NCBI RefSeq assembly: GCF_014764505.1
Contig: NZ_JACXWX010000001.1
Coordinates: 682,001 to 746,000 of the forward strand
From: Phormidium tenue FACHB-886
GTDB taxonomy: Bacteria; Cyanobacteriota; Cyanobacteriia; Elainellales; Elainellaceae
Length of the DNA: 64,000 bases
Reading direction: 5' to 3'
Position numbers and translations under genes: made by a program. Under the pieces are notes generated by a model that saw only the letters and a program-made list of their open reading frames with translations, was not told the origin of the DNA and ran no database searches. Shown here piece by piece: positions 7,579 through 26,456 of the stretch (positions are counted from its first letter, which is position 1; the number at the start of each line of letters is the position of its first letter).

Positions 7579-7932
7579 CTATTGCTTAACCAAAGTAAAT
7601 AGCTTCTCAAAAATTTGAACGCTGATGTAGAGCAGGGGAAAGGCGATCCCGACTAGCCCCAGCCAGCTCAGGAGAGAGATGAAAAGCCGAGCCGGACGCC
7701 TCAAGGGTCTATCTTGAGCCGCCGAAGCTAGCTGTGTTCCCAATGCCATCAGCAGCGCTCCCCCGATTCCAAACAGAATGCTGGCTGTCACCCATATGGG
7801 CAAGAATGCACTTGGTTGCGCCAATCGTAGAGCAGGCAGCAGTAAAAAGCTGACTGCTTCGATCGCCAGCCAAATTCCTAAACAAAAGAACAGATCTTTG
7901 CGGGCAAGATTGTTCATCGCAAAGCGACGCAT
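7579..7932 (-). CDS. Small three-helix membrane protein, conserved hypothetical
   Basis: About 117 residues from the ATG at 7932, which has the ribosome-binding sequence GGAGAG four bases upstream; an upstream start at 7944 is possible but lacks such a site. Three hydrophobic helices are visible: LFFCLGIWLAIEAVSFLLL, PIWVTASILFGIGGALLMAL and LFISLLSWLGLVGIAFPLL. No family is recognised. Convergent with the TPR gene (end 7546), with a gap of 32 bases. Confidence 0.7.
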   Translation of the reverse strand: MRRFAMNNLARKDLFFCLGIWLAIEAVSFLLLPALRLAQPSAFLPIWVTASILFGIGGALLMALGTQLASAAQDRPLRRPARLFISLLSWLGLVGIAFPLLYISVQIFEKLFTLVKQ

Positions 7933-23798: not shown

Positions 23799-24143
23799 TG
23801 CGCCGCCTGTGTTCTAACAATTTGCCTCATCTATGGTATTGCCTAACGGGGGCTAACTGGGTGTAAAAGCCCCACTTTCAAGCCCAAAATTTGGGATCAG
23901 CAATACCCCGTTGACATCGCCTAGTTTCAAGTTTGGTTCTTCAATAAAAACCGCACTCGAAAATAGCGACGCCAACTCACTCATTGTATCGAGGGCTAGT
24001 CCGAAACAGACAAGGACTTTTGGGGCTGCTAGGGCGATCGGCTAAGTCAATCTACTAGCCTACTGCGATCGGCTGATATAGAGACTTCAAAGCAGCATCA
24101 GGACTTCTGCCGCTAAATAGAAGCAATACCTAGCCAAAACACC
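23799..24143. other. Intergenic region upstream of pheT
   Basis: About 345 bases with no supported gene. A weak hairpin GGGGCT/AGCCCC (23849-23854 with 23868-23873) lies about 50 bases upstream of the pheT start, where a leader or attenuator would sit; the 13-base loop and missing T-run make this tentative. Confidence 0.4.
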
Positions 24144-24530
24144 CTACATTTTTGCACCTTGTGGCAGAAAGACAGCGGAGTCATAGTAAGTCCGAAAATG
24201 GTGGACTTGTTCTCCCTGTGTTTCCAGCACGCTAATACCGCGATAGCGCATAGGTTCACCTGTGGATAGCGCACCCTCCGAAACCCACTCCAAAACTGTA
24301 GTACCGTTTCCTTCGGCTACATGAGTAAAACTTGAGTGAATGCGATCGAACACAGACAAATAATTTTGCCAGAACTGGCGAATGCTTTTTTGACCTTGAA
24401 CCGGCGCTTCCATTGCCAAATTACTCAGCTCTGCATCTTCTGTAAAGAGGGCAACTAAAGGTTCAACGTCGCCTGTTTTTTCACTTTGCTGAAGCGTTTG
24501 CATAAATCGCTCAGCCATCTGACTTGCCAT
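24144..24530 (-). CDS. SnoaL-like / NTF2-fold protein
   Basis: A 128-residue protein of the SnoaL/NTF2-like superfamily. It has the family pattern of an N-terminal helix (MAERFMQTLQQSEKTGDVEPLVALF), then TEDAELSNL and a curved sheet with FDRIHSSFTHVAEGNGTTVLEW and YRGISVLETQGEQVHHFRTYYD. Members range from isomerases to binding domains; no specific activity can be assigned. The ATG has a strong AAGGAGG ribosome-binding site. First of a run of small minus-strand genes reaching 25541. Confidence 0.85.
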   Translation of the reverse strand: MASQMAERFMQTLQQSEKTGDVEPLVALFTEDAELSNLAMEAPVQGQKSIRQFWQNYLSVFDRIHSSFTHVAEGNGTTVLEWVSEGALSTGEPMRYRGISVLETQGEQVHHFRTYYDSAVFLPQGAKM

Positions 24531-24602
24531 CTTTCCTCCTTGCTCTGTAGTTCTATGCTCTATAGTTCTGTAAACTGGCTGTATTTAATTGGACCGCAGA
24601 CT

Positions 24603-24701
24603 CTAATGAAAGTCGATAATAGGCTGCAGAATTAATGCAATCGCACCCACAATTACAAACGATAGCGTTACCCAAAATGCGGTTAGATTTATGTTGTTCA
24701 T
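24603..24701 (-). CDS. Small single-helix membrane protein, 32 residues
   Basis: A short gene that an ordinary length cut-off would miss. The ATG at 24699-24701 is preceded by TAGGAGACCGCT, a good AGGAG ribosome-binding site at normal spacing. The product starts MNNINLTAFWVTL, has one hydrophobic helix of about 20 residues (including SFVIVGAIALILQP) and ends IIDFH before a TAG. It is flanked on the same strand by the 78-residue protein upstream and the SnoaL-like gene downstream. It does not match any small photosystem or cytochrome b6f subunit I know. Existence is supported by start signal, composition and context; the function is unknown. Confidence 0.6.
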   Translation of the reverse strand: MNNINLTAFWVTLSFVIVGAIALILQPIIDFH

Positions 24702-24729
24702 AGCGGTCTCCTACTAGCTGAGGTTTTTG

Positions 24730-24966
24730 CTAAAGTTGACTTGAAGTCTCTGGGGAAACTTCTACCCCCTCTGCTTCTTGATCGGCTGGTCTAATCAGAC
24801 CATCAAAGCTCTGAATTTCTATCCCAAGATGCTCGCTTGCTTTTCGTAATGCAGTCTCAAATGCTGTGATATTTTCATATCCACAGCGCTGAGCGGCAAC
24901 TTCAATGCCTTTAGCACCGTTTGCTCTTGCGCAATCTACTAATTCGCTTCCTTGTAGCGATGTCAT
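24730..24966 (-). CDS. Small soluble hypothetical protein, 78 residues
   Basis: From the ATG at 24966 (MTSLQGSELVDC...), which has ACAGGAG ten bases upstream; a longer frame to 25062 lacks such a site and its extra residues look non-coding. The product contains ARANGAKGIEVAAQRCGYEN and a second helical half with ALRKASEHLGIEI, then an acidic tail. No family is recognised. It sits between the DUF2267 gene and the 32-residue membrane protein, all on the minus strand. Confidence 0.6.
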   Translation of the reverse strand: MTSLQGSELVDCARANGAKGIEVAAQRCGYENITAFETALRKASEHLGIEIQSFDGLIRPADQEAEGVEVSPETSSQL

Positions 24967-25088
24967 GTCTATACTCCTGTTTAGTGGCGTGCAATTTCTT
25001 AGGTAAGGCAAGAACCAGGCAATTTTAATAAACTGCGCTGGTTCTTGCACTATTAGAATCAATGCGCTATTCGATCGCCTGACTCGCT

Positions 25089-25541
25089 CTAGGTTCGTAC
25101 TGCTTCTGGAAATAGTTCTTTGATCTCAGCCGGCAGGATGCCCGTGACATCTTGCATTTCGCCCGCCGGAACTCGATCTGCCATAACTCGGAAAACAGCC
25201 TGCATCAACTGCTCTAAGTCAAGCCCTGCGTCATCTTTTTGGAAGTAGTGACGCAGCTCTATCCGGAGGCTTTCTATAAATGCCTCTTTCGTCCGCTCTT
25301 TGGTCGGCGTTTGTTCTGGCTTCCAACCTTCGTAGTAAAAACCGGACAGCAGAATAGGCAGCTCAGCGCCCAGGTTGGCTGCTTCACCCACCGTCAAACG
25401 ATCCCGCAATACATGCAGCGTTGCCCGCAGTCCTTGAAAGGCCTTGCGCTTATCCTCTATATTTAGCTGTTTGGCAACTTCGTTTACCCACTGGTGCGTT
25501 AGTTGCGTTGTTTTGTCGAATACTTCTAGTCCAGACATCAC
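25089..25541 (-). CDS. DUF2267 domain protein
   Basis: A 150-residue all-helical protein of the DUF2267 family. Typical features are VFDKTTQLTHQWVNEVAKQL at the start, RATLHVLRDRLTVGEAANLGAEL in the middle, LPILLSGFYYEGW, and a final ALPAEIKELFP-like stretch seen here as ILPAEIKELFPEA. Biochemical role unknown; relatives are often found with stress or general-metabolism genes. The start could be the ATG at 25538. Confidence 0.88.
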   Translation of the reverse strand: MMSGLEVFDKTTQLTHQWVNEVAKQLNIEDKRKAFQGLRATLHVLRDRLTVGEAANLGAELPILLSGFYYEGWKPEQTPTKERTKEAFIESLRIELRHYFQKDDAGLDLEQLMQAVFRVMADRVPAGEMQDVTGILPAEIKELFPEAVRT

Positions 25542-25634
25542 ACGTCCCGCTTAATTTCAACATTGATTATGCTAACGGGGCGATCGCAGTCAGAAACCTA
25601 TCAAACTATAGAGATCCGTTGATGCTCTGCTGCT

Positions 25635-26456
25635 TTAGGCTCCCTTGAAGTAGCCAATTGCCAATCCCAGCAGCAGCAGTCCACCAAAGCCAAGCCGATA
25701 CCAGACAAAAATCCAGTTGCTATGTCGCTGTAAGTATCGCAGTAGCCAAGCGATCGACAGATAAGAAAAGATAAAAGTGGAAACAATCCCAGCTGCAAGG
25801 GCAACCAGACTATCGACCTCAGCAAAAGCTTTGCGTGCCTGATAGAGCGTAGCAATGGTTAACGTGGGGATGCCCAACAGAAAAGAAAACCTTGCCGCCG
25901 TTTGTCTTTCTAACCCCAGAAATAGCGCAGCCGTCAGCGTCGAACCCGACCGAGATGCACCTGGAAATAGCGCGATCATCTGCCCCAGACCGACTAGAAT
26001 GCCATCGCTGATTTGTAGAGACTTAAAGTCTCGCTTGCGGCTGCCAATCTTTTCTGCTAACCCCAGCAGTAGCGACATCACAATCGACATCGTAGCAATC
26101 ACAGGGATACTCTCAGGCAAAATATCCTTAAGCAAAAAACCGATCAGCAGCGCTGGAATTGTCCCAACTACAATGCCGACGAACAGCTTCCATTCTTCCC
26201 GCTCCCAGGCTTTTTCCCGAAATGCGATCGCCGCTCCCCTCAAGGTTTGGCTGACATCTGCCCAAAAATACAAAACTACTGCAATCACACTGCCAAACTG
26301 AATCGCATCCACAAAATACTTTTGCCCGACATCTTCCCAGCCCAGCGCTTTGGTAAACACCAGCAGGTGAGCCGTACTGCTAATTGGCAAAAATTCAGTG
26401 ATTCCTTGAATAAGCCCAAGCACGATCGCCCGAATAATTTCTTGAATGAGATCCAC
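25635..26456 (-). CDS. uppP: Undecaprenyl-diphosphate phosphatase UppP/BacA
   Basis: A 273-residue polytopic enzyme that dephosphorylates undecaprenyl pyrophosphate to recycle the lipid carrier for peptidoglycan and other glycans; in many bacteria it gives bacitracin tolerance. The two active-site motifs are intact: GITEFLPISSTAHL (glutamate and serines) and PGASRSGSTLTAAL (the catalytic arginine/serine region). Eight hydrophobic helices are visible. Length and ATG start are normal. Confidence 0.97.
   Translation of the reverse strand: MDLIQEIIRAIVLGLIQGITEFLPISSTAHLLVFTKALGWEDVGQKYFVDAIQFGSVIAVVLYFWADVSQTLRGAAIAFREKAWEREEWKLFVGIVVGTIPALLIGFLLKDILPESIPVIATMSIVMSLLLGLAEKIGSRKRDFKSLQISDGILVGLGQMIALFPGASRSGSTLTAALFLGLERQTAARFSFLLGIPTLTIATLYQARKAFAEVDSLVALAAGIVSTFIFSYLSIAWLLRYLQRHSNWIFVWYRLGFGGLLLLGLAIGYFKGA

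Follow-up and report, generated by a model that had tools for sequence, protein, structure and literature searches.

A conserved 32-residue cyanobacterial gene encoding a predicted single-helix membrane microprotein

Whether a frame of only 99 bases encodes a protein at all, and what so small a membrane protein might do, are the questions raised by this locus of Phormidium tenue FACHB-886. The window, by which the whole analysed stretch of 64,000 nucleotides is meant, carries the frame, here named ORF32, on its minus strand (Table 1). The translation is MNNINLTAFWVTLSFVIVGAIALILQPIIDFH, with a computed mass of 3.59 kDa and a pI of 5.06. The initial annotation had described an AGGAG ribosome-binding site ahead of a clean ATG and a place within a run of same-strand genes; the first was found as described, and the run is real, comprising the genes for UppP, a DUF2267 protein, a 78-aa protein, ORF32 and a SnoaL_2-like protein. 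The DNA stretch and the ORF32 protein each give one strong match in the 8.93 Mb host assembly, whose psaM gene, like the relatives of ORF32, marks the host as a cyanobacterium. Within positions 23800-25700 consensus promoters and terminators occur at no more than chance level.

Table 1. Coordinates of ORF32 and of the features around it in the window
Feature	Position	Strand	Basis or remark
ORF32, 32-residue single-helix membrane microprotein	complement(24603..24701)	-	ATG..TAG, homologs, selection, predicted helix
Start codon ATG of ORF32	24701-24699	-	read from sequence
Stop codon TAG of ORF32	24605-24603	-	read from sequence
AGGAG Shine-Dalgarno of ORF32	24712-24708	-	6 bases 5′ of ATG, read from sequence
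SnoaL_2-like protein gene	24144-24530	-	family scan; 72-base gap, downstream of ORF32
78-aa protein gene	24730-24966	-	no Pfam/NCBIfam family; 28-base gap, upstream of ORF32
DUF2267 protein gene	25089-25541	-	E 1.2e-29
UppP/BacA, undecaprenyl-diphosphate phosphatase gene	25635-26456	-	family scan

ORF32 could be a chance open frame and no gene, as it is short and 122 frames of at least 25 aa overlap the 10 kb listed around it, most of them presumably chance. Against this reading stand its homologs, a reversed-sequence control and the pattern of substitutions. A search with the single ORF32 sequence gave matches in 12 of 60 genomes at E<0.03, its own included, with values to 4e-11 in other genera, while the reversed sequence, run on that set, reached at best E 0.19. 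A profile built from ten homologs, run against 388 genomes of the class, matched 21 at E<1e-3; at E<=1 the number is 183, and those above 1e-3 were taken as chance. The 21 positive genomes comprise 18 with intact copies (three with a shorter N-terminus), two with broken copies and one with a 17-residue fragment (G284). Intact copies occur in six GTDB families among the genomes drawn, 10 of the 36 genomes of the host's own family are positive at E<1e-3, and no genome smaller than 4.9 Mb among the 388 has a match at that threshold. A scan of named genomes, limited in sensitivity by its single peptide pattern, yielded 52 pattern matches; the confirmed loci number 16, and each lies in a record with a cyanobacterial title. 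Named hosts are Scytonema, Tolypothrix, Brasilonema, Atlanticothrix, Myxacorys, Coleofasciculus, Leptolyngbya and others, and ORF32-positive strains include Scytonema sp. NIES-4073 and Tolypothrix campylonemoides VB511288.

The consensus of 26 intact homologs is MxLNLxLLWVTLSFVVVGAIMLLLQPxIDFH, and the window copy is 46-81% identical to the other homologs. In the 26-row alignment M1, V18, G19, L23, L25 and P27 are invariant, and W10, T12, L13, S14, F15, V16, Q26 and I29 are nearly so; the alignment leaves out the broken copies (G003 = L077; G052 = L035), the weak or partial G284, G062 and G076, and weaker matches to E 1. Over a 22-codon core pN is lower than pS in all 231 pairs of 22 loci (means 0.16 and 0.77), pairs that share ancestry and are not independent tests, and the same loci differ at 1197, 527 and 3079 positions of the first, second and third codon base, respectively, so that the third position leads. 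Broken copies were kept out of this set, as were L074, L084, L033 and L034, whose N-terminus is shorter. Homologs, reversed-sequence control and third-position substitutions together argue that ORF32 is not a chance frame, a reading whose probability is now negligible. The initial annotation's reading of a real small gene is thereby borne out: ORF32 is a genuine gene conserved across several cyanobacterial families, and public genomes alone suffice to show that a 99-base frame is coding.

Stops or frameshifts in close relatives had been named beforehand as evidence that would speak against the gene, and such lesions were seen in two genomes. In Leptolyngbya sp. FACHB-8 (G003, L077:6001-6090), which belongs to the host's own family, the copy has an in-frame TGA and lacks the ATG, and in G052 (L035 near 7693-7749), a draft of 88% completeness from another family, the N-terminal half is out of frame as judged by eye. 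Since ORF32 is intact at the remaining 26 loci, that of the window among them, and the 22 of these that were tested are under purifying selection, the two broken copies speak for dispensability rather than for an absence of coding, and they suggest that loss is ongoing. The patchy distribution within the family and the two broken relatives together show that ORF32 is dispensable.

From the spacing alone we infer that ORF32 and the 78-aa gene upstream of it are co-transcribed. The 78-aa protein, which was matched in 39 of 60 genomes and has a second copy in its own genome, constitutes an unnamed cyanobacterial family. On the downstream side, a SnoaL relative is also found near ORF32 in three other loci (L066, L069 and L073). 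In several loci a same-strand gene starts shortly downstream of ORF32, an arrangement expected of a leader peptide, which would control the next gene through being translated while its product is inert. This role is very improbable for ORF32, as its amino acids are conserved from W10 through the IDFH end and the downstream genes differ among loci. More generally, the neighbours of ORF32 differ between loci, although several kinds recur, and this variety favours a stand-alone protein over a subunit dedicated to any one neighbour.

The transmembrane helix proposed at the outset is supported by prediction. AlphaFold2, from the single sequence, gives one helix spanning residues 2-31 (mean pLDDT 94.4, pTM 0.50), and the best 19-residue hydropathy window, at residues 11-29, scores 2.42. 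ORF32 thus has all the features of a single-TM micro-protein, namely a length below about 80 aa, a single predicted TM helix and protein-level selection. The first six residues carry a net charge of +1 in 16 of 26 homologs and 0 in the other 10, and the last seven carry -1 in 20 homologs and 0 in six. The positive-inside rule is the established basis for reading membrane topology from charges, and by this rule the lean towards a positive N-terminus and a negative C-terminus suggests that the N-terminus is probably cytoplasmic and the QPxIDFH end lumenal or periplasmic. Conservation has no preferred helical face among the 26 homologs (helical band p 0.46), and an amphipathic binding face was rejected on this ground; constraint over much of the helix suits close packing.

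Searches of family libraries with 26 ORF32 members returned weak matches only, both in Pfam (best E 0.0039, none above threshold) and in NCBIfam (best E 0.0096), and no PDB chain matched ORF32 at E<=10. PsaM from the host genome, 29 aa in length, served as positive control: its Pfam model recovered it, and in the PDB it matched 42 distinct sequences, with a best value of 3e-12. The two-helix Pfam family CyanoTRADDas_TM, reached by three of the 26 members (best E 0.0039), was taken as a hydrophobic chance match, as were the other Pfam matches at E 0.05-0.25. No description of the family was recognised among the literature matches listed, in a search that covered the text of papers. At the sequence level, ORF32 is a real family that has neither a model in the copies of Pfam and NCBIfam searched nor a relative in the PDB.

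The initial annotation had likened ORF32 to no small photosynthetic subunit, and this holds in all three collections: identity with a known subunit is unsupported, while the PsaM control matched in Pfam and the PDB. PsaM, PetN, PsbX, Ycf12 and NdhP/NdhQ are proteins of about 30-45 aa with one helix, and in size and single helix they are like ORF32. To our knowledge, however, the small subunits of PSI, PSII, b6f and NDH-1 are near-universal in cyanobacteria, whereas ORF32 matches none of their families or solved chains and is patchy. An overlooked standing subunit, part of a core complex of photosynthesis or respiration in all conditions, would fit the size, the single helix and the strong conservation, but it is an improbable identity for a protein found in 21 of 388 genomes and in fewer than a third of its own family, broken in two relatives, and without a PDB chain where PsaM has 42.

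ORF32 appears instead to represent a new family among the tiny single-TM microproteins, a size class that has repeatedly proved to tune photosynthetic and respiratory complexes. The nearest candidates, Norf4 and SliP4, were compared by description only; SliP4 and HliR1 are taken here to be two names of one protein. Hlips are likewise one-helix, stress-linked and cyanobacterial, and their chlorophyll-binding motif is ExxNxR. This motif is absent from the 26-row ORF32 alignment, and no Hlip family was among the Pfam matches. Norf4 of Synechocystis, the nearest to ORF32 in size, is reported to have 31 aa, one predicted TM helix, a mass of 3.16 kDa and a pI of 5.59; its transcript is described as overlapping gap1, and its sequence as extremely conserved, with hardly any substitutions among 51 genomes that span all five subsections and take in UCYN-A (PMC5126843). 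Norf4 resembles ORF32 in being cyanobacterial, of 31-32 aa, with one predicted TM helix, and first met as an unannotated small ORF; by description, it differs from ORF32 in mass and pI, in its stronger conservation and in its wider distribution, which takes in reduced genomes. A gap gene is absent from the five window genes scanned and from the recurrent neighbour clusters, which were named by eye with partial coverage of the loci. SliP4 is a 37-aa high-light protein of Synechocystis that is described as facilitating the association of NDH-1 with PSI or PSII (PMC12850537), and HliR1, encoded before sodB, has one predicted helix and homologs reported only within Synechocystis (PMC5126843). Like ORF32, SliP4/HliR1 is tiny with one TM helix, and its gene precedes the stress gene sodB; the reach of ORF32 over six GTDB families contrasts with the Synechocystis-only distribution given for HliR1.

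A patchy small membrane protein may also be the toxin of a toxin-antitoxin pair, and ten of the 26 ORF32 members do match NCBIfam TsaT weakly (best E 0.0096). When six members were rescanned, a set that left out this best member, TsaT was matched by three, over residues 6-24 only and with at most 14.6 bits, where the curated cut-off stands at 80 bits. PADLOC gave no match for three ORF32 members, no consistent partner gene is found across the loci, the C-terminus is not cationic, no match to ORF32 was obtained in 72,556 plasmid records, and none of 39 pattern matches in viral contigs was confirmed as a relative. A toxin is accordingly as improbable as a leader peptide. A mobile-element or phage gene was rejected because plasmids gave no match at E<=10 and the viral pattern matches were unconfirmed.

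The genes that recur near ORF32 offer a first indication of function. In a context test, 24 queries were run against 24 ORF32 loci and 20 control stretches from ten positive genomes. The locus set omits L069 (which has a SnoaL gene), L067, L071 and L076, near-duplicates of L064 and L075, as well as the weak matches L085 and L086, and it retains the two loci with broken copies. Absent from the 20 controls were a 160-aa stress-type protein (4 of 24 ORF32 loci), SnoaL (3), aldo/keto reductase (3), an HPF-like protein named by eye (3), PNPOx (2) and a glycosyltransferase (5, one at 25% identity), whereas generic families occur about ORF32 and in the controls alike (histidine kinase 3 vs 4, WD40 3 vs 3, SDR 2 vs 2). 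These counts are to be read with the design in mind: because the queries come from the ORF32 loci themselves, most of them score the locus of their origin; five of the 24 hit no more than one test locus, and kinship among the Nostocales loci raises some numbers. A Pfam scan within 3 kb of 23 loci, with genes picked as longest frames, covered 135 test and 116 control proteins. Glycosyltransferase group 1 was found in six test proteins, SnoaL_2 in three, and DUF2267, aldo/keto reductase and PNPOx in two each, and these five families were unseen in the controls among the matches listed (the 25 commonest per set); short-chain dehydrogenase (3 vs 2) and PAS (3 vs 3) hardly differ.

The 160-aa neighbour resembles general stress protein 17M, a label given by eye. 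Members of this 160-170-aa family lie at L032:8104-8585 (minus strand) and L072:6143-6655 (plus strand), and for the L072 copy neither Pfam nor NCBIfam gave a match at E 0.001. Matches to the L032 copy were found in 346 of the 376 cyanobacterial genomes searched, so that its adjacency to ORF32 is not specific, and a specific pairing of the two was rejected.

A second indication comes from trehalose. The gene treY, which encodes the trehalose enzyme TreY (TIGR02401), is found in 19 of 20 ORF32-positive genomes and in 115 of 368 others (Fisher 1e-8), with broken copies scored as positive and the G284 fragment as negative; phylogeny confounds these raw counts, and genome size perhaps does so too. 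Within the host's own family the figures are 10 of 10 and 18 of 26 (p 0.076). Many of the named hosts are presumably terrestrial, and a link of ORF32 to drying stress is suggestive only. If the link is right, membrane protection in cyanobacteria that tolerate drying could be approached through this one gene, which can be deleted.

The explanation preferred here, held tentatively and with somewhat less than even confidence, is that ORF32 is a stress-linked single-pass microprotein that helps a larger membrane complex. It would insert into the membrane as one helix in the orientation given above and, by a guess, pack against such a complex, which it may stabilise or tune under drying, osmotic or light stress; SliP4 and other tiny one-helix partners offer a parallel for such a helper. 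Conservation without a preferred face, which lends no support to a one-sided binding surface, counts against this reading. ORF32 might instead associate with itself and alter membrane properties without any protein partner, a direct action that has been proposed for Pmp3/RCI2-type proteolipids. A tiny, very hydrophobic protein, constrained without a preferred face and recurrently near stress-type genes, would suit such a bilayer-acting role. It is nevertheless unlikely, given the strict conservation of W10, Q26 and P27, which exceeds the needs of bilayer insertion, and the single helix of ORF32 against the two of Pmp3-domain proteins (PMC5126843). The helper reading can be sharpened, at a similarly low probability, to a family of stress-conditional accessory helices, mainly in trehalose-making and largely terrestrial cyanobacteria, that would clamp an electron-transport or cell-envelope complex into a protective state during drying and rewetting.

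Two further observations concern the surroundings of ORF32 in other genomes. In two genera a protein of 221-228 aa, hydrophobic-looking by eye, is encoded soon after ORF32 (L065:6184-6846 and L078:6162-6845, both on the plus strand), and it has no match in Pfam or NCBIfam at E 0.001. A conserved upstream motif of ORF32 was rejected, the one candidate dyad being missing from the window even with one mismatch. This dyad, AAAGAC-N8-GTCTTT, is found in four of 119 loci, all of them related Nostocales, about 150-185 bases before ORF32 (L064:5815-5834, L065:5840-5859, L067:5818-5837 and L071:5809-5828), where it may be an operator or a hairpin.
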